DNA of 64,000 nucleotides, from the IMG/VR virus record IMGVR_UViG_3300035661_000043, positions 1-64,000 of that record; one strand, written 5' to 3'. Below are positions 12,869-57,609 of the stretch, one piece after another. Positions within the stretch are counted from its first letter, which is position 1; the number at the start of each line of letters is the position of its first letter. Source of the DNA: a virus. The position numbers and the translations under genes were made by a program. The notes below the pieces were generated by a model that worked only from the letters and a program-made list of their open reading frames with translations, was not told the DNA's origin and ran no database searches.

Positions 12869-12918
12869 CCCAGTGAACACAAGTTCTACAATATTTTAAT
12901 TTGACAAAGGAACATAAG

Positions 12919-14895
12919 ATGGCAATTTCCGTTTCACCATCAGTTGTTGTTACTGAAAAAGATCTGACAAACATCGTCCCAGCAGTATCTAGCTCTGTTG
13001 GTGCTGCGGTTATTGATGCAGCATGGGGTCCAGTTATGGATGTCACAAGCATTGATTCCGAAAAAGCATTAATTCAGCGCTTTGGTAAACCAAACAACTC
13101 AAACTTCGAAAACTGGTTCAACGTAGCAAACTTTCTTGGCTATAGTGCCTCGGCTCTTGTTGTTCGTACCGATACCGCTGGACAATTCAACGCTGTTTCT
13201 ACCCTAACAGGCAGAGTAGGTGTTGTGACTATTGGTGCCGGTGGGACAGGTTACATTCCCTCTGAGACTTCTGTTTCATTCTCTGCTCCTAATGTGACCG
13301 GTGGCATCCAAGCCACAGGAACTGCTATCATTTCTGGTGGTGTGATCACTGGTGTCACTGTTACTAACCCAGGTTCTGGCTACACCTCAGCTCCTACAAT
13401 CACTATTGCTTCTACTGGATCTGGTGCTAGCGCTACTGCTACTGCTACAAAAGTAGATGGTGGTATCAAGATCAATAACCTTGATACATACCAAATGTCT
13501 TATGCAAATGGTGAAGGTGTAGTTGGAGAATTTGCTGCTCGTTATCCAGGTTCGCTTGGTAATTCTCTGACTGTATCTATGGCAGACTCTGCTACATTTG
13601 ATACATGGGCATATAAAGCAATCTTCGGTATCAAACCCGGCACTTCCAACTTTGCTACTTCAGTTGGCGCGAGCAATGATGAATTGCATGTAGTAGTGAT
13701 TGATGCAGATGGCAAGTGGACAGGCACTGCCGGCACTGTTATTGAATCATACGCCTTCCTATCTAAAGCATCAAATGCTAAGAAATCTGATGGTACTTCT
13801 TCTTATATTAAGAATGCTATCAACAATGCATCACAATATGTTTACTGGATGGATCACCCAATTGCAGTTTCTGGTACCGGTGCTGACTGGGGTACTCTGG
13901 CAGTAAATGGTAGTGCATATAAGAGTCTTACAGCTGTTGTTACATCTACTCTGGCTGGTGGTGCCGATGATTATGCATCAACGAATGCAGATAAGATCGA
14001 TGCATATGCATTGTTCAACAATGATGAACAGTATGATGTCAGCTTGGTTCTGGCAGGTGATGCAGATAGAGAAATAGCTCGTTTCATTATCGACAATATC
14101 GTTGAAGTCCGTAAGGATTGCATGGCATTCGTTTCCCCGAAGAATGTTAGTACTGGTGAGCCAATCATCGGCTCTAATGCGGATGCAGATGAAGCAATCA
14201 TCAAGTATAAGAATGGTGATGGCGCTTCTCTGACTTCACTACCTTCTAGCTCTTACGTTGTGTTTGATTCTGGTTACAAGTACCAGTATGACCGCTACAA
14301 TGATGCATATCGTTGGGTCCCACTGAACGGTGATATTGCAGGTCTGTGCGCTCGTACCGACTATACAGATGACCCATGGTTCTCTCCTGCAGGTTTCAAT
14401 CGCGGTCAGGTAAAGAATGCTATCAAGTTGGCATACAACCCAACCAAGGCTAGCCGAGACACATTGTACTTGAATGGTGTTAATCCAGTGGTTTCTTTCC
14501 CAGGTCAGGGTGTAGTTTTGTATGGTGATAAAACAGGTCTGGCTAAGCCATCTGCTTTTGATCGTATCAATGTACGTCGTCTGTTCATCACTTTGGAAAA
14601 GGCTATTGCTACTGCAGCTAAGTATCAACTATTTGAATTCAATGATGGTTTTACCCGTGCGCAATTCCGTAACATGGTTGAGCCATTCCTGCGCGATGTA
14701 AAAGGTCGTCGTGGTATTATCGACTTCAAGTGCATGTGTGATGAGACAAATAACACAGCAGAAGTTATTGATGGTAACAGATTTGTTGCTGACATTTACC
14801 TAAAGCCATCTCGTTAGATTAATTTTATTCAGCTTTCCTTTGTGGCAACACGCACAGGTGCAAGTTTCGATGAAATTATCGGTGGCACAGCATAA
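12919..14895 (+). CDS. 18: Tail sheath protein gp18
   Basis: 658 residues. Starts MAISVSPSVVVTEKDLTNIV as T4-like sheaths do; the ATG has AAAGGA upstream. A Gly/Ser/Thr-rich insert (GTGYIPSE...SGYTSAPTITI) forms a surface domain. The conserved C-terminus runs LKPSR-TAG-INFIQL and continues to TAA. T4 reads KPARSIN here, so TAG equals Ser at one of the most conserved sites of the protein. Stopping at TAG would remove the last 26 residues of the sheath core. Contractile tail outer tube. Confidence 0.93.
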
Positions 14896-21795: not shown

Positions 21796-23241
21796 TTAGT
21801 TCAAGATATAGACAAAATTTCCACAGTCATATATTTGAAAATATCCAGCATTTTCCATAATCTGTCTTTCAGTTAAATCATCTTTATAATAAGTAGGTAC
21901 TAATTTCTTTAGTTTGGATTTTTGTGTTTGATATCTTGAATACCAACCATTAAAACTATGCCAGGAATAACCGGGTTCTGTTTTTCTTATATATTTCCCA
22001 AATCGGGAATATGTTTTGCCAGTGGATATTTTTCTGTCGCAATAAGTAAGAATAGGTTCTGTTGTTATATTATTTCTTACATATTTCATCAATTTTGAAA
22101 AACCACCAATGACTGTGACATTAAGTTTAGACGCCATTCTTATTAATTCAAAATTACATTCTTTTGTGAATCTACTTTTTCCTATGGATATACACATGAC
22201 GATCTCATTATCTGATAGAAGAGCAATATAGTTATTAGCAGGAGAAAATCCCTGAAGATGTGTTTTATCAAAAAATTCTCTTGCTTCTTTCGCTGCAATC
22301 TCTTTTATAGTTGTTTTTCTTGCATAGATTTTTTCTGAATTACCTAATTTGTTCAAAAGAATAGACTTCACAATTTCTGGTTTATGTTTCAATTCCTATT
22401 CAAATATATGCATAAGATTAACACCAATTTGAGAAGCCATTTCTGTTTTTTCTAGATGAGATTTAATTTCATCTGATTTTTTAGTAGAATGCCAATAGAT
22501 TCCATCAAATTCAATCCCAAGTTTTAGTTCTGGGATGTAAATGTCAATTTCTCTCGGAGTTATTACTGATCTACTATTTCTTACAGTATCAAAACCGAAA
22601 GATCTGATCCATGCATCTAATTCATCCTCACCAGCAGAACCTGTTTTGGCATAAGTAAAAAGATTATGATATGCATAATACTTTTGTACAAAAACTACAT
22701 GAGCACCATTAAAGAATTTCATACTTAGTTCTGATAAAGATTTACACTCATCTCTAATAGAGCAGAGATAATCTTTGTCAAAATACATATCCAAATTTAA
22801 ACCAAGTTCTGAAAATTTACTCTTTAAAGATTCGATCTTTCTAATTCCCCTTTTCTTTTTCTTTGATTCTTTTACACCAGGAATTCCATTATTCCATGAA
22901 ACACCGTATTTTTCTTGGTAAGTTTTTCTAGCTTTTTCTGCACGTTGTTTAGAATTATTTCTTTGAATTTCAGATATTTTGGCAACAGTAGAAGGTTCAT
23001 TTGCTGCACATCTAGGAGAACATACTTTCTGACCGGGTTTCACATAGTGAATACCACCACAGTAACATTTCATTGGCGGCATGTCGCTTATCAAGAAATC
23101 GATACGATCCCGCATGTTCCATTTTTCATAGCCAACGGCTGAAGTTTTCTCCATAATATATGTAAATAGCCCATGAGACTTGAGATAATTCTCTTGCATT
23201 TTTCTGGGACTTTTTCTTACTTCTACAAGTTTTTCTTTCAT
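21796..23241 (-). CDS. EDxHD/Vsr-like homing endonuclease A
   Basis: 481 residues when TAG at 22393-22395 is read as Ser, giving NLMHIFESELKHKPEIVKS. It has a Cys-rich N-terminal finger (CYCGG, VCSPRC) and the nuclease core REIDIYIPELKLGIEFDGIYWHS, which resembles the Vsr-like EDxHD homing endonucleases known from fractured phage genes. The C-terminal domain includes IYARKTTIKEI. It lies antisense after gp23, outside any intron that I can see, as a free-standing mobile gene paralogous to the next one. Confidence 0.78.
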
Positions 23242-23341
23242 TCTAGCCTTAAATTGGTTATATCAATTTGATGATCTTGTTAATTAAACATGTCTACTAA
23301 CCTTTTGTAACCTAATTGATGAATTAAGTGTTCAATCTTTT

Positions 23342-23370
23342 CACAAAACCGCCCGAAGGCGGTTTTTGTG
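23342..23370. terminator. Bidirectional terminator between endonuclease genes
   Basis: CACAAAACCGCC-CGAAGG-CGGTTTTTGTG: a long near-perfect stem with T-runs on both strands. The core is the same ACCGCC/GGCGGT stem used after gp23. Confidence 0.78.
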
Positions 23371-23378
23371 TTTCTTCT

Positions 23379-24845
23379 TCATGTTAACACATACTTTAAA
23401 TTGCCGCAATCATAGTATATCTTGAACTTATTATTAAACATATTCTGTTCTTCTGTTAAGTTTTGATCAAAAGTCTTTAACAGTGTCGATAATTTGGATT
23501 TTTGTGTTTTGTATCTGGAATATGTTCTTGATCCATTTGTCCAAACATACCCAGGATCTGTCAATTTCAAGAATGTAAACTATGATTTTGCATATACATT
23601 CCCATTTGAAATTCTTCTGTCAGCATATGTAATAATAGAACCAGTATAGTTCTTTCTGAAATAATTTAGAATCTTCTGAAATCCACCTACAACAGTAGTA
23701 TTCAATTTAGATGCAAATCTGATGATTTCCCACTCATAGTTCTTTTCAAATCTTGGTTTACCAAAAGTACAAACTGCTACTAATTCATTCTCATAATATA
23801 GACCGAGATTGACTTTAGACACTGCATATCCACTTAGATGTGTTGTTTCCAAGAATTGCTTTGTATTTTTAGAATCAACTATTCTAAGATCACATTTTCT
23901 AGCATATATCTTTTCTGTGATGCCTAATTTAGAACGAATAATAGATTTGACTAATTCCGGAGATTCTTTCCATTCTTCTTCTGTGATTCTTATAACAAGA
24001 TTACCCGTTTTTTCTGCATCAATCACTTTCTTTTGATGTATTTTCTTTTCGGCAGATGAGAGTTTTCTGTCTGATCCGTGAAAATATAGACCATCATATT
24101 CTATACCAAAATTCTTTTCTGGTACAAATATGTCTATCTCTCTTTTATCTGTGTCAAAAATTTTGACATTCTGTTGAACGTCAAATCCAATCGATTTGAC
24201 GAATTCTGCAATTTGTTTTTGACCAGAAGAAATAGAATAGCCTACTTTCACTGGTATTTCATGTAACGCAATATATTTTGCTATAGTTCCTTTGTCAATA
24301 TCAAACTCCGATGATATATCCATATACGTCTTGTCTAATGTGATATACTGATTATATAGCCAATCTCTGTCTGAAACCATGGTTTCAATTCTTTTCTACA
24401 ACTTAGATTTAGTCCATACGTGCTTTATATCTTCTCTTTGTGAGTTATATTCTACCCCATATTTCTTAATCATTGTTTCTTTTCTGGATTGTTTTCTTTT
24501 TTCAAGAATTTCTGGATCTGAATCACGAGTTTTTACAGCAAGACGGATTCTTTCAACATCTTTAGAAGAACATTTTTTTGAACAATAATCTGAAATTCCT
24601 TTGTCTCCAAATACGAACATTCTTCTATTTGTTTTACACACCGCACAAACCCCAGGTTCACACAATTGCATTTTGGCTAGTGTGAACAATTCTCTGACAG
24701 AATAGCCATCTCGTTCATATATATCTAAAATAGCTAGAATATGTGAAGTGTATTCAAATTTTGCACGAAGAAATTTGTAATTGCACCTCTTGCTAGGTAT
24801 TTTTCCATTTACTTCTAGTGCTTCTATTATCTCATCAAACCACAT
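23379..24845 (-). CDS. EDxHD/Vsr-like homing endonuclease B
   Basis: 488 residues with two TAG (24409 and 23580 region) read as Ser; otherwise it appears as three pieces. Start ATG at 24845 with AGGAG upstream. Cys finger (CAVCK, YCSKKC), then KREIDIFVPEKNFGIEYDGLYFH, the Vsr-like core, then a C-terminal IYARKCDLRIVD domain shared with endonuclease A. The C-termini of both end in a RYxTQKSKL...DCGN motif, so they are clear paralogues. A mobile gene. Confidence 0.78.
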
Positions 24846-25046
24846 TTGGAAACTCCTATGTTCTATATTATATATTAATTTGATGATCCAGTGAAGTAAA
24901 CGGAATGAATAATAGAAACTATTCATTACTTCAATGTGACTAATTTCTCACACATAGACAAAGTTATGTTTGTCTGTGTCAGATCACTGCTAGACAAGAT
25001 CGAAGCTGTAGGACAGTTAATGCAGGAGCCTACTGGTGTCTCCTTC

Positions 25047-37082: not shown

Positions 37083-37667
37083 ATGTATTTGTATGACTTA
37101 GAGACACTTGGTGTAAATGAAACAGCTGTAGTACTTTCTATAGGTTGCATTTATATCAGTTCACCAGAACCGTGTTCATATCATGATTTGATGAAGAATT
37201 CTTTCTTCGTGAAATTGGATGCTAAACATCAAATCCAAAAACTGGGTCGACAAGTTACTTCCTCTACCGTAGATTGGTGGGCAAAACAAAGCACCGCTGC
37301 TAAGCATACATCATATATCCCAAGTAAGAATGATGTGACACCTGACGTGGCGCTTCAGCAACTACGGAAGTTTGTCTATGACAACACCGGGCAATCTCGA
37401 GTCAAGTGCTATACTCGTGGATCCATGGATGTTATTGTTTCAGAGCATTTGGCTAAGCAAGTCGACATGAAACTTCCTTGGGTGTATAATAACTTCAGAG
37501 ATATTCGTACTGCTATCGATATTCTATACACACTCAGTAAAGATGGGTATGTGGCAGTAGACCAGACAAAATGCTTTGGTTACACAGATGACATGACTAT
37601 TGCGCACAACCCAGTGCACGACTGTGCTCGCGATGCTGCAATGCTACTTTTTGGAAAGACTGAATGA
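37083..37667 (+). CDS. dexA: 3'-5' exonuclease DexA
   Basis: 194 residues. DEDDh-type exonuclease: YDLETLG (DxE), STVDWWAKQS, RDIRTAIDIL and HNPVHDCARDA (HxxxxxD) match T4 DexA (STIEWWKNQS, RDIRTRIEAL, HDSIHDCAKD). Likely degrades host DNA and trims ends. The stop overlaps the polymerase ATG. Confidence 0.88.
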   Translation: MYLYDLETLGVNETAVVLSIGCIYISSPEPCSYHDLMKNSFFVKLDAKHQIQKLGRQVTSSTVDWWAKQSTAAKHTSYIPSKNDVTPDVALQQLRKFVYDNTGQSRVKCYTRGSMDVIVSEHLAKQVDMKLPWVYNNFRDIRTAIDILYTLSKDGYVAVDQTKCFGYTDDMTIAHNPVHDCARDAAMLLFGKTE

Positions 37668-39169
37668 CAAGATTTTATACAAACGTAGTAAGACTCGGGA
37701 ACAATATCTGTGTCCGAGAGCAAACAGAAACTGGACCTAGCAAGTTTAAAACTCGTTACCAGCCAACATTATTTCTAAAGACCGACAAGGAGTCAAAGTT
37801 TAAGACTCTGTACGGAGATTTTGCTAAACCCGTGCAACAAGACTCGATGTCAGAAGCACGAGAGTTCATCAAGAAATATGAAGGTGTACGTGGGGTAGAA
37901 TTGTTCGGTCAGCATAACTGGGTTCTTCAGTACATTAATGAGACATATTCTGGATCAGTTAACTTTGACCCAAAACTGATTTCTGCTTGGTCTTTAGATA
38001 TAGAAACGCTATTGTTTGAAGATGCAGAAGGAAAGATTACTGGCTTCCCGAATGCAGAGACAGGTGATTGTGAAATCACTCTTATCACAATTCAATGTCT
38101 GCAGAGCAAACAGTGCTTCACATTTGGCTCACGCGAGTATAAAGGTGAAAAAGTTCTTGATAGCAGGTACATGAACTGTGGATCTGAAAGGGAAATGCTT
38201 AAGCAGTTCATACAATTTTGGCAACTCAAATCAGTAGAAGTGATCACTGGATGGAACATCGAGCGGTTTGATATTCCGTACATTGTGAATCGTGTAAAAG
38301 TAGTTCTCGGAGAAGAATGGGCCAAGAAGTTATCACCGTGGGAATCAGTTGAAGTTATTAAGAAACGTGTCTCCGGTGGGTTTGGTGGAGATGAAGAAAT
38401 CATCTGTAATATTGCTGGTGTGTCTATTCTAGACTATATGGCTCTGTACAAGAAATTTGTGTTTGTAAAACATGAATCTTACTCGTTAGGGCATATTGCA
38501 CAGGAAGAACTTGGTGAGACCAAATTGGACCACTCGGAGTATAAGAACTTCAATGAGTTCTACTGGAAGGGGTTTGATGCAAAGTATGTTGACTATAACA
38601 TCCGAGATACGCAACTTGTTGCTCGTCTTGAAGATAAATTGAAACTTATTGAGTTAGTCTATACTCTGGCATATTTGGCAAAAATCAACTTTACAGATGT
38701 TTTCAGTCCTGTAAAGATGTGGGATTCTATTCTCCACAACAGGCTGTTTGGTGAAAATACGGTTGTGCCACTGAAGGAACACAATCCTGATGGTGACAAG
38801 CACATCGAAGGTGCTTATGTAAAGGACCCATCAGTTGGTATGCATGAATGGGTTATCTCATTAGATGCTACAAGCTTGTATCCATCCATCATGATGACAC
38901 TGAATATCAGCCCAGAAACATATCGAGGTATTGACAAAGAATACAATGTTGATTCTTTGTTGGCTGGGAAAATGAAGTTGGATCCACCTCAAAATCAAGC
39001 ATGGGGACCGAATGGTTCCAAGTTTGAAATTACTACACGCGGTGTTATCCCAAAGATTGTAGAAGAAATGATGGCAGATAGGAAATCTTCTAAAAAGAAA
39101 ATGCTTAATAGGACTCAGGATCTGGAACACATCAAGACAGAAATCACCAGGCGTGGATTGAAAGTGTAA
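37664..39169 (+). CDS. 43: DNA polymerase gp43, fragment 1 (N-terminal, exonuclease, palm start)
   Basis: 501 residues, no TAG. Family B polymerase: exonuclease motif WSLDIETL, GWNIERFDIPYI, YNIRDTQLVARL; palm motif A as SLDATSLYPSIMM. It stops at TAA after ITRRGLKV, in the fingers region. The rest continues in the gene at 39340. The 170-nt gap holds no gene or intron core that I recognise. Fission here recalls the split gp43A/B of some Aeromonas phages. Confidence 0.92.
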   Translation: MTRFYTNVVRLGNNICVREQTETGPSKFKTRYQPTLFLKTDKESKFKTLYGDFAKPVQQDSMSEAREFIKKYEGVRGVELFGQHNWVLQYINETYSGSVNFDPKLISAWSLDIETLLFEDAEGKITGFPNAETGDCEITLITIQCLQSKQCFTFGSREYKGEKVLDSRYMNCGSEREMLKQFIQFWQLKSVEVITGWNIERFDIPYIVNRVKVVLGEEWAKKLSPWESVEVIKKRVSGGFGGDEEIICNIAGVSILDYMALYKKFVFVKHESYSLGHIAQEELGETKLDHSEYKNFNEFYWKGFDAKYVDYNIRDTQLVARLEDKLKLIELVYTLAYLAKINFTDVFSPVKMWDSILHNRLFGENTVVPLKEHNPDGDKHIEGAYVKDPSVGMHEWVISLDATSLYPSIMMTLNISPETYRGIDKEYNVDSLLAGKMKLDPPQNQAWGPNGSKFEITTRGVIPKIVEEMMADRKSSKKKMLNRTQDLEHIKTEITRRGLKV

Positions 39170-39339
39170 GATCAAAAAGTTTCCGACTATTGATTTAGCT
39201 GGGACTTTTGTATATTACCAAATACACGTTCACTTTTCTTCATTCCCACAAACGGGAAGTAATTTTTCTTCGATATCAACAATTTTCAACCTTTACTATA
39301 TCACCATATAGTATATTTTATTAGAACAGGACCTCATAT

Positions 39340-39984
39340 ATGGATCTTTCTAAACTTTCCGATTCCGAATTGTTAAAACTCTACAATAAAGCAGAAGAGG
39401 AAATCTCCGCTCTTGATAACTTACAAATGGCACTCAAGATCTCTTTAAATTCACTTTACGGTGGAATTGGAAATCAAGGGTTCCGTTTCTTCAACTCTAA
39501 TGTTGCAGAGACAATTACATTGACCGGTCAGTATGTTCTTCGGTCTATTGAGCAAAGCATCGATGATAAACTGAATAAAGTATTCAAGACAGAGGGTCAC
39601 AAGTACCTGATCTATATCGACACTGATTCTGTCGTCGGAGATACAAAAATTTTAGTTAACGGCACTGAAACAACAATTGCAGATTATTATGATTCTAAGA
39701 CGGAGTTCATCAAAAGAGATGAATTTAATAAAGACTATGTTAAAAAATGTGATTCAGATTACACACCTACTGTGAATCCAAATACACAGGTAATGGAAAA
39801 TAAATCTGTTTCATATGTTATGAAACATAGAGTAAAAAAGAGAATGTATAAAATTACTGTTGGTGGAAAAGAAGTAATTTGTACGAATGATCACTCAATT
39901 ATTGTACGCAGGAATAGTCTCATTCTTTCCGTTATTCCCTCAGACATTCTGAAGACTGATGAGTTAATACATATTAAGCACTGA
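39340..39984 (+). CDS. 43: DNA polymerase gp43, fragment 2 with split-intein N-part
   Basis: Own ATG with AGGACC upstream. MDLSKLSDSELLKLYNKAEE, then ALKISLNSLYGGIGN (motif B) and YIDTD. From the next Ser an intein begins: SVVGDTKILVNGT (block A), KITVGGKEVICTNDHSIIV (block B), and it ends at TGA after about 115 intein residues. The catalytic motif C (YIDTDS) is interrupted between D and S. Trans-splicing with the 40044 gene is needed. Confidence 0.9.
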   Translation: MDLSKLSDSELLKLYNKAEEEISALDNLQMALKISLNSLYGGIGNQGFRFFNSNVAETITLTGQYVLRSIEQSIDDKLNKVFKTEGHKYLIYIDTDSVVGDTKILVNGTETTIADYYDSKTEFIKRDEFNKDYVKKCDSDYTPTVNPNTQVMENKSVSYVMKHRVKKRMYKITVGGKEVICTNDHSIIVRRNSLILSVIPSDILKTDELIHIKH

Positions 39985-40043
39985 ATTTGTATGAACTAAT
40001 ACATGACTAAAGATCGTGATTTAATTATAGAAAGATTAAAAAA

Positions 40044-40997
40044 ATGCAATTAGAGTTCACAACTGATTTTCAGATTGAAGATTTAGGTGAGATCGAAGAA
40101 GATGTTTATGATATTGAAACAGAAGATAATCATAATTTTTTCGGCAACGGTGTTTTAGTACACAACAGTTGTTACATCAATGTCGCCCCAGTTGTACAGA
40201 AATATCTATCAGATATTCCCGATAAGTCTGAGATTATTAAACGATTAGAAAAATTGGCAGTTGATATTATTCAAAAGAATGTCAATGATATTGTGAATGA
40301 TGTCTGTAAGCAAATGAATGTCTACGAGAACAAACTATCATTTAAATTAGAGGTATGTGCAGATAAGGCAATCTGGTTAGCAAAGAAAAAATATGTAGTA
40401 CGTGCATATTCTTCTGAGGGTGTTACATACTCAAAACCAAAATATAAAACGATTGGTTTGGAACTCGTCCGTTCGTCTACTCCAATGTTTATCCGTAAGA
40501 AGTTGAAGGATGTTCTCCCATTGGTGTTTGACACAGATCAAAGCACAATTCAGAAATTTTTATTAGAAACTCGTAAAGAGTTTGATCAATTGTCGGTGCA
40601 AGAAATTGCATTTCCAAGATCTGCTAACAATTTAGAGGAATATTCCGATAGTCAAAATATCTACAAAAAGGGTGCTGGTGTGTCTACACCAATACATGCC
40701 CGCGCAAGTTTGTTGTATAATGATCTAATACGGAAGAAAAATCTTCAAGGGCAGTTTCCAATTATTGTTTCTGGTGCGAAGATCAAATTTGTGTATCTAA
40801 AACTACCAAATACTCTAAGAGAGAATGTCATTGCTTTCCCTGCTGATGAGACTCTTCCTATTGAATTTGACCTACACCAGAAGGTTGACAGAGATATTCA
40901 ATGGGACAAAACGATGATTGCTTCTACACAGATCATTCTAGATTCAATTGGTTGGTCAGCTATCGAACAGTCAAGTTTAGATGACTTTTTTGGTTAA
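40044..40997 (+). CDS. 43: DNA polymerase gp43, fragment 3 with split-intein C-part
   Basis: The first 41 residues are a classical split-intein C-part, ending EEDVYDIETEDNHNFFGNG then VLVHN; the next residue, Ser, restores TDS-CYINV. The polymerase thumb follows, and the C-terminus ends SSLDDFFG, a clamp-binding peptide like the T4 gp43 tail. Only 59 nt separate it from fragment 2. No endonuclease gene lies between them. Confidence 0.9.
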   Translation: MQLEFTTDFQIEDLGEIEEDVYDIETEDNHNFFGNGVLVHNSCYINVAPVVQKYLSDIPDKSEIIKRLEKLAVDIIQKNVNDIVNDVCKQMNVYENKLSFKLEVCADKAIWLAKKKYVVRAYSSEGVTYSKPKYKTIGLELVRSSTPMFIRKKLKDVLPLVFDTDQSTIQKFLLETRKEFDQLSVQEIAFPRSANNLEEYSDSQNIYKKGAGVSTPIHARASLLYNDLIRKKNLQGQFPIIVSGAKIKFVYLKLPNTLRENVIAFPADETLPIEFDLHQKVDRDIQWDKTMIASTQIILDSIGWSAIEQSSLDDFFG

Positions 40998-50035: not shown

Positions 50036-50111
50036 GGGACTATAGTTTAATGGTTAAAACATCACCCCTTTAAGGTGTAAGCTCTCGGTTCGAATCCGAG
50101 TAGTCCTACCA
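50036..50111 (+). tRNA. tRNA-Lys(UUU)
   Basis: Acceptor GGGACTA/TAGTCCT, A73, CCA; anticodon stem CACC/GGTG with loop CCTTTAA (C33); canonical T-arm. Confidence 0.8.
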
Positions 50112-53224: not shown

Positions 53225-53672
53225 TCGCACATCAGAATGACTGTATGGATCTTCGGATCTGTGAAGTTGAAAGAAATGTGTTCAGGAAGCGAGTTCGAGT
53301 CTCGCCAGCTCCACCAGAAGTATATCATCTGATGCATTCTGTGTGCTGTATATATTGCAAGTATTCAGTATACTTCTGATGGGGCTGTATTGGTTTCGAC
53401 TGGGCAATGAGTATGGAGATGGACAGTTTGGCAACGCAGAAGCCATTATGATTGGGTCTTCCCGGTTGAAGAAGCAAACAAAAGTAAAAGCAAACGCTGA
53501 TACATTCCTGATGGCGGCTTGATCGCCCAGTGAGGATTCCTTGGGTGTTCCTTATTACCAAAACACCCATCCTAATATACGGAGAGTGGACCTGCAGGGT
53601 GCAGGCGCTGTTTGCTAAACAGTTGGTGTCAGGAATGGCATTCCGGTCGGGACGGACTCTCTCCTCCAAAAT
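53225..53672 (+). ncRNA. ssrA: Circularly permuted tmRNA
   Basis: The acceptor piece comes first: T-arm GCGAG-TTCGAGT-CTCGC, then CAGCTCC-A-CCA ending at 53316. After a 64-nt spacer with its own 9-bp stem, the coding piece begins at 53381 with GGGGCTG, which pairs with CAGCTCC, followed by TATTGGTTTCGAC. The tag frame starts at GCA 53490 and reads ANADTFLMAA, stop TGA. This is the two-piece layout of alpha-, some beta-proteobacteria and cyanobacteria. Outer limits are approximate. Confidence 0.85.
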
Positions 53673-54632: not shown

Positions 54633-54896
54633 GCAAATTTAGCTCAATGGTTAGAGCAGCGGACTCATGAAAAATTGTGCACCTAGGTAGGGATGCTTAG
54701 TGTGAATGTTGTCAAATTCGAAGAAACCTAAGTCAGAAATGATATGGTAACCTCGAGCCAAGCCTGAGAAATTAGGTGCTGTGTAGAGACTAGACGGCAA
54801 CCATCTAGAACAGATGAAGGTATAGTCCAGGGAGTGGCGAAAGTCACACAAACCAGAATCCGTTGGTTACAGGTTCGAGTCCTGTAATTTGCACCA
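54633..54896 (+). tRNA. tRNA-Ile2(CAU) interrupted by a group I intron
   Basis: Exons 54633-54668 and 54857-54896. Spliced, the tRNA is flawless: acceptor GCAAATT/AATTTGC, anticodon stem GCGGA/TCCGT, loop CTCATAA, T-arm ACAGG-TTCGAGT-CCTGT, ACCA. The 5' exon ends in U and the intron ends in G, as group I splicing demands. The insertion site (CAU|AA) equals that of the Azoarcus tRNA-Ile(CAU) intron, so Ile2 (lysidine-modified) is more likely than Met. Confidence 0.9.
54669..54856 (+). ncRNA. Group I intron, IC3, Azoarcus-like (188 nt)
   Basis: Core elements in order: GTCAAATTCGAAGAAACC (P3/J3-4/P4), TAACCTCGAGCCAAGCCTGA (P6-P5'), GTGTAGAGACTAGACGGC (P8/P3'/P7), GATGAAGGTATAGTCC (P7'), then GGGAGTGGCGAAAGTCAC (P9 with GAAA loop) and ACAAACCAG. 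I recall nearly the same strings in the Azoarcus ribozyme. No endonuclease inside. Confidence 0.9.
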
Positions 54897-57519: not shown

Positions 57520-57609
57520 GGAAGTTTGGCAGAGTGGTTTATTGCCGCGGACTCTAAATCCGCTGAATCAGAGATGGTTCCACGAGTTCGAATCTCGTAA
57601 CTTCCTCCA
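57520..57609 (+). tRNA. Amber-decoding tRNA-Ser(CUA)
   Basis: Class II tRNA, 90 nt. Acceptor GGAAGTT/AACTTCC perfect, U73, CCA. Ser-type D-arm (TTGGCAGAGTGGTTTATTGC); anticodon stem GCGGA/TCCGC, loop CTCTAAA with anticodon CTA at 57554-57556; variable arm GAATC-AGAGAT-GGTTC; T-arm ACGAG-TTCGAAT-CTCGT. E. coli tRNA-Ser(UGA) has the same GGAAGT start and D-arm style. This tRNA explains the serine reading of TAG in the window. Confidence 0.92.

Follow-up and report, generated by a model that had tools for sequence, protein, structure and literature searches.

A very likely self-splicing, Azoarcus-type group I intron in a phage tRNA-Ile2(CAU) gene

The 64,000-nucleotide stretch of viral DNA analyzed here (the window, from IMG/VR record IMGVR_UViG_3300035661_000043) contains, at positions 54633-54896, what is well supported as a genuine Azoarcus-type group I intron in a phage tRNA. 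We consider it very likely that this locus is a phage tRNA-Ile2(CAU) gene with a self-splicing Azoarcus-type (IC3) intron between nucleotides 36 and 37. Several phage lineages and the chromosomes of betaproteobacteria share this intron at the same base, and phage alleles without it also exist. The locus is notable because it brings to light a wider set of group I introns in the tRNA genes of phages, one that has received little description.

The interrupted tRNA gene

When introns were allowed, ARAGORN placed a tRNA(CAU) gene with a 188-nt intron at 36/37 in window 54633-54896, giving the same coordinates as a first-pass annotation that had put the intron directly after CAU. A cmscan search in which all 4227 families were compared with the full 64-kb window matched RF00028 at 54657-54849 with 66.4 bits (cut-off 50 bits; E 1.2e-14), and a group I core was thus found by covariance search as well. 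In the whole 79,755-bp record, the only group I intron is this one, at 54669-54856. On refolding with ARAGORN, the joined exons form a full cloverleaf with a CCA end, with stems of 7 (acceptor), 4 (D), 5 (anticodon, including one G.U) and 5 (T) pairs, in keeping with the earlier description of the exons as a perfect tRNA. The intron lies in the anticodon loop of tRNA(CAU), a site shared with its Azoarcus-type relatives, and both this position and the functional-looking tRNA agree with the initial naming of an Azoarcus-type tRNA-Ile(CAU) intron.

Since the annotated CAU-type matches to the window tRNA, from phages and from E. coli, are labelled tRNA-Ile, its sequence is best read as that of tRNA-Ile2 rather than tRNA-Met. 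In tRNA-Ile2, the host modifies C34 to lysidine. The features of the gene are as follows.

54633-54668, plus strand: tRNA(CAU) 5' exon, its last bases being the anticodon CAU (ARAGORN; alignment)
54669-54856, plus strand: group I intron, IC3-like, 188 nt, terminal G at 54856 (cmscan, ARAGORN, empty site, covariation)
54674-54679, plus strand: internal guide, in which GUG (54677-54679) pairs with exon CAU to form P1, with U.G at the splice site (sequence; covariation alignment)
54674-54676, plus strand: P10, in which AUU, just 5' of the guide GUG, can pair with AAU of the 3' exon (by inspection)
54680-54704, plus strand: P2 hairpin, GGGA tetraloop at 54690-54693 (minimum-energy fold)
54708-54713, plus strand: P3 5' strand GUUGUC, with 3' strand GGCAAC at 54796-54801; covaries GC/AU/UA (alignment, covariation)
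54717-54723, plus strand: P4 5' strand, with 3' strand at 54751-54757; one A.C mismatch (alignment, covariation)
54727-54747, plus strand: P5, with 11-nt receptor halves CCUAAG (54727-54732) and UAUGG (54743-54747), the predicted dock for L9 (sequence, alignment; PMC4705646)
54763-54776, plus strand: P6a hairpin CCUGA-GAAA-UUAGG (sequence)
54788-54792, plus strand: P7 5' strand GACUA, with 3' strand UAGUC at 54823-54827; guanosine-binding helix (cmscan, covariation)
54802-54816, plus strand: P8 CAUCU-agaac-AGAUG, short and without the 11-nt receptor of bacterial relatives (alignment)
54834-54847, plus strand: P9 GUGGC-GAAA-GUCAC, with L9 tetraloop GAAA at 54839-54842 (alignment, covariation)
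54857-54896, plus strand: tRNA(CAU) 3' exon, first bases A37 and A38, CCA end (sequence, ARAGORN)

Intron anatomy, covariation and predicted splicing

The window intron contains the conserved P3-P9 core with its guanosine site in P7, and its P5 consists of one plain hairpin, about 20 nt in length, with no P5abc extension, an element absent from IC3 introns (PMC11835236). Its final base is G (54856), as the group I 3' site requires, a U.G pair lies at the 5' splice site, and the folding z-score is -2.81. The window intron holds no homing endonuclease gene; at 188 nt it is too short for one, and it has no reading frame.

Covariation was assessed in 21 sequences, namely the window gene aligned with 17 betaproteobacterial and 3 phage tRNA(CAU) genes carrying introns at the same site, against a hand-drawn structure of 60 pairs (tRNA stems, P1-P5 and P7-P9). 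This structure forms in 99.0% of cells across the alignment, and 24 of the 60 pairs have changed on both sides, with a covariation score of 0.284 versus 0.099 for shuffled and at most 0.067 for slid controls. The window intron itself contributes double changes in P3 (U-A for the usual G-C), P4 (A-U for G-C) and P8 (U-A for C-G), and the P1 pairing of CAU with GUG is invariant in all 21 sequences.

From this anatomy we infer two-step group I splicing with exogenous guanosine. In the precursor, exon CAU would pair with the intron GUG as P1, and guanosine bound in P7 would attack the 5' splice site, directly downstream of CAU. In the second step, the released CAU would attack just past the intron's terminal G, and the ligated exons would fold into a complete tRNA, which would decode AUA once the host had turned C34 into lysidine.

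The long-range contacts bear on how active such a ribozyme would be. In the Azoarcus ribozyme, GAAA loops meet 11-nt receptors at L9/J5 and at L2/J8 (PMC4705646). The window intron retains the first pair of elements (L9 GAAA, P5 receptor CCUAAG/UAUGG) and lacks the L2 GAAA/P8-receptor combination, which is typical of Azoarcus and optional for IC3 introns: its L2 is GGGA, and its P8 is 5 bp long with no receptor. Among the CAU members examined, the short P8 form occurs in the window intron only. Across the introns fetched, a long P8 goes with L2 GAAA and a short P8 with other GNRA loops (GUAA, GUGA, GCGA, GGAA), with a single exception (L046) and few short-P8 introns in the set. As P8 length tracks L2 loop type in this way, the L2/P8 contact appears to have been swapped in a coordinated fashion. 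An automated L2/P8 table put P2 in the wrong place in the window intron and in some of the long-P8 members, and those were read from the alignment or fold. Simple loss of the L2/P8 contact was considered and dropped, as the minimum-energy fold gives a GGGA tetraloop in P2.

The A.C mismatch in P4 and the substituted L2/P8 contact could weaken the activity of the intron. Taken further, the mismatch and the missing L2 GAAA and P8 receptor could mark a decayed, inactive intron whose tRNA is no longer produced. This seems very improbable to us, as the remaining core pairs are all kept, with compensatory changes, and the exons still make up a complete tRNA. The mismatched P4 pair is C.A, and so also unpaired, in 5 other members of the alignment. 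Moreover, the other short-P8 introns, few in number, almost all have a non-GAAA GNRA loop in L2, and the L2/J8 contact is often substituted (PMC4705646). A self-splicing intron remains our preferred reading.

The phage, its relatives and the origin of the intron

The contig carries phage hallmark genes (portal, scaffold, major capsid, sheath, UvsX, DnaB and family B DNA polymerase), and an uncultured, T4-like aquatic phage is the best explanation for the carrier. The intron-bearing gene lies within a tRNA gene array adjoining a permuted (two-piece) tmRNA at 53257-53522 (94.7 bits), and a permuted tmRNA has been reported in the Melnitz/pelagimyophage group (PMC9004378). There is also a UUA-anticodon tRNA at 50036-50111.

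Several other features of this phage were observed. TAG is read as sense, and a CUA tRNA at 57520-57609 is of class II and Ser-like (GGAAGTTTGGC...). The single TAG of the tail sheath gene (12901-14895), at codon 639, corresponds to Ser in 28/28 aligned homologs, and most of the remaining TAG codons fall at variable positions; TAG may therefore be serine in this phage. The family B DNA polymerase occupies three frames (37664-40997), of which the middle one (39190-39984) combines a polymerase segment with a weak, below-cut-off match to the intein-splicing family PF14890 (26.5 bits), possibly a split intein arrangement. Two homing-endonuclease-like proteins (phrog_3339) are encoded on the minus strand at 21796-24926, just downstream of the major capsid gene.

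Viral contigs provide the corresponding empty site. Intronless tRNA(CAU) genes occur on contigs L325-L334, and in L330-L334 the stretch from D arm to T arm is identical or near identical to the window exons, with CTCATAATCC uninterrupted. The best intronless phage match to the exons is 67/76, the differences lying in or beside the acceptor stem, and among intron-bearing bacterial tRNAs the closest reaches 57/77 (at most 74%). Because the exons are thus nearer to intronless phage tRNAs than to bacterial intron-bearing ones, the intron appears, from these comparisons, to sit in a phage-type tRNA gene and not to have arrived with a bacterial one. Those same figures make it unlikely that the phage picked up a whole betaproteobacterial tRNA-Ile gene, intron included, a route to which the anticodon arm (GCGGACTCAT before the intron, AATCCGTTGG after it) lends something, being the same as in several Massilia/Pseudoduganella-type intron-bearing tRNAs. 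An assembly chimera, in which a bacterial intron-bearing tRNA was fused to a phage contig, would fit a single metagenomic contig and is exceedingly improbable: the exons are phage-type, the intron sequence differs from every bacterial one, tRNA genes of the phage surround the locus as an array, and the arrangement recurs on other phage contigs. An intron set into a phage-type tRNA gene would most likely have reached the conserved anticodon loop through recombination or reverse splicing.

Bacterial relatives were sought by a core-pattern search of one genome per prokaryote species (84,980 species). All 18 matching loci were betaproteobacterial, and 17 of these are tRNA(CAU) introns at 36/37, the eighteenth being an unparsed locus near a contig end. 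The earlier statement that IC3 tRNA introns are carried on bacterial chromosomes is thus borne out by 17 examples at the same site. A near full-length copy was present in 8 of 300 genomes of one such betaproteobacterial order, and the intron is therefore sporadic there. In addition, the Comamonas aquatica plasmid pB1A (L336) carries a degenerate 3' fragment of a CAU intron beside an IS3 transposase.

Other phages share the intron too. IMG/VR contigs with the same intron at the same site (L114, L124/L125, L241/L306/L317, L251/L273/L275 and L255) carry terminase, ParB, UvsX or other phage gene families, although the phage origin of L255 is less certain because that contig is short; including the window, there are at least six such phage lineages. 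A 5'-end pattern scan was noisy, with 9 of 100 loci being true tRNA(CAU) introns and the rest chance matches elsewhere. Scans that excluded the window's own record found no second copy of the exact window intron, which thus comes from a single contig, and records with related capsid genes, mostly fragments, contained no group I intron and no full tRNA copy. Contigs L241, L306 and L317 share a variant with terminal A, not G, before AATCGC and with P7 as GACTT/AAGTC. In contig L114, about 560 nt separate two tRNA introns, one in tRNA(CAU) and one in tRNA-Leu(UAA), that belong to different intron clades; the Gln label that ARAGORN gave in L114 was rejected, as that tRNA is CAU.

In the intron tree, the CAU introns form one clade (UFBoot 80; FastTree 0.936) in which phage and bacterial members are intermixed, L255 grouping with the bacterial L340 at 100 and L124 lying among bacterial introns. 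The tree gives the window intron no settled place inside this clade. The betaproteobacterial host at which the first-pass annotation hinted is plausible, in that the intron clade points there. The closest cultured capsid relatives, however, are HTVC008M (61%), which infects SAR11, and Melnitz (58.6%), which infects Methylophilales, and the exons resemble phage tRNAs rather than bacterial intron-bearing ones.

The scattered distribution of bacterial tRNA group I introns has long been taken to suggest lateral transfer, and we know of no established vehicle for it. Given that betaproteobacterial chromosomes and at least five other phage lineages have the nearest relatives of this intron at the identical site, viruses probably help to carry these introns around. 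A bolder reading, quite possible if somewhat short of probable, is that phage tRNA arrays serve small group I tRNA introns as a main reservoir and shuttle, that the Azoarcus type has repeatedly crossed between phages and betaproteobacteria at a single site in the anticodon loop, and that similar introns sit in many other phage tRNAs. It draws on the mixing of phages and bacteria in the CAU tree, the intronless phage alleles and the HNH genes encoded by some introns. Whether the intron serves the phage is a separate matter. Splitting the anticodon loop could hide it from tRNA-cutting host defenses until splicing, or delay the supply of tRNA, and related introns do occur in many phage tRNAs. Bacterial chromosomes use the same site, though, and intronless phage copies exist, and we give such a service little credence; the intron is probably a near-neutral passenger.

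Phage tRNA introns and comparison with known systems

The first-pass annotation had seen in the phage carrier a vehicle for transfer of such introns. A carrier of this kind is not exceptional, as the site is shared by the phage lineages above and introns related to this one occur in other tRNAs of many phages. The window core motif matched at least 120 loci in IMG/VR, and about 106 of the 120 listed are introns inside a tRNA according to ARAGORN, a proportion that is no frequency among all phage introns because the motif favors tRNA-type introns. Among the matches listed, the hosting tRNAs are mostly Leu(UAA) and Tyr, along with Ser, Thr, Arg and others. Three phage tRNA introns, of 687-856 nt, encode HNH endonucleases (L092, L120 and L338), the gene in L120 being on the reverse strand of the intron. 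Two marine podophages (L122 and L123) have group I cores like those of tRNA introns, two of which Rfam confirms in L122; as these cores are flanked by two pieces annotated as capsid protein, they probably interrupt a protein gene.

In the cultured Agrobacterium phage Atu_ph07 (MF403008; L335, 1495-1856), a group I intron of 278 nt interrupts a tRNA-Leu(UAA) that lacks annotation; part of the intron is overlapped by an annotated hypothetical protein, and two huge-phage genomes have tRNA introns similar to it. Transfer, splicing during infection and effects on fitness are now testable, most easily in Atu_ph07.

The Azoarcus intron is about 205 nt long, against 188 nt in the window. The pre-tRNA-Ile(CAU) intron of Azoarcus sp. 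BH72 (IC3, PDB 1U6B) shares with the window intron the tRNA, the post-CAU site, the CAU:GUG guide, the core strings, the GAAA-capped P9 and the 11-nt receptor in P5. It differs in that the window intron has GGGA rather than GAAA as its P2 loop, a shortened P8 and a phage carrier. Core strings nearly those of Azoarcus had been claimed at the outset: all are present and the resemblance is borne out in the core and in the 3' third, while over its whole length the intron is 60-68% identical to its aligned relatives. The argument rests on the fetched betaproteobacterial sequences, and the best block against the Azoarcus intron (82% over 82 nt, in the 3' part) serves as a lead only.

The betaproteobacterial tRNA(CAU) introns (Gulbenkiania, Massilia, Pseudoduganella, Uliginosibacterium, Limnobacter, Limnohabitans and others) belong to one clade with the window intron, at the same site and with an aligned structure. 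Unlike it, they are chromosomal, their exons differ in the acceptor stem and D loop, and they have a long P8 in all cases and L2 GAAA where read. The other phage tRNA(CAU) introns share anticodon, site and clade with the window and differ in their long P8 with receptor and, in the L241 type, in having no terminal G.

In the openly searchable literature, group I introns in phage tRNAs are barely described, and a report elsewhere may exist. A 2014 review placed all phage group I introns then known in protein genes, despite the many phage tRNA genes (PMC3984707). These classical introns are likewise phage-borne group I ribozymes and differ in the type of host gene. The 2019 Lak phage paper calls its phage tRNA introns enigmatic and previously unreported (PMC6784885); like the window intron, the Lak megaphage introns lie inside phage tRNAs, but they do not appear to be assigned to group I there.
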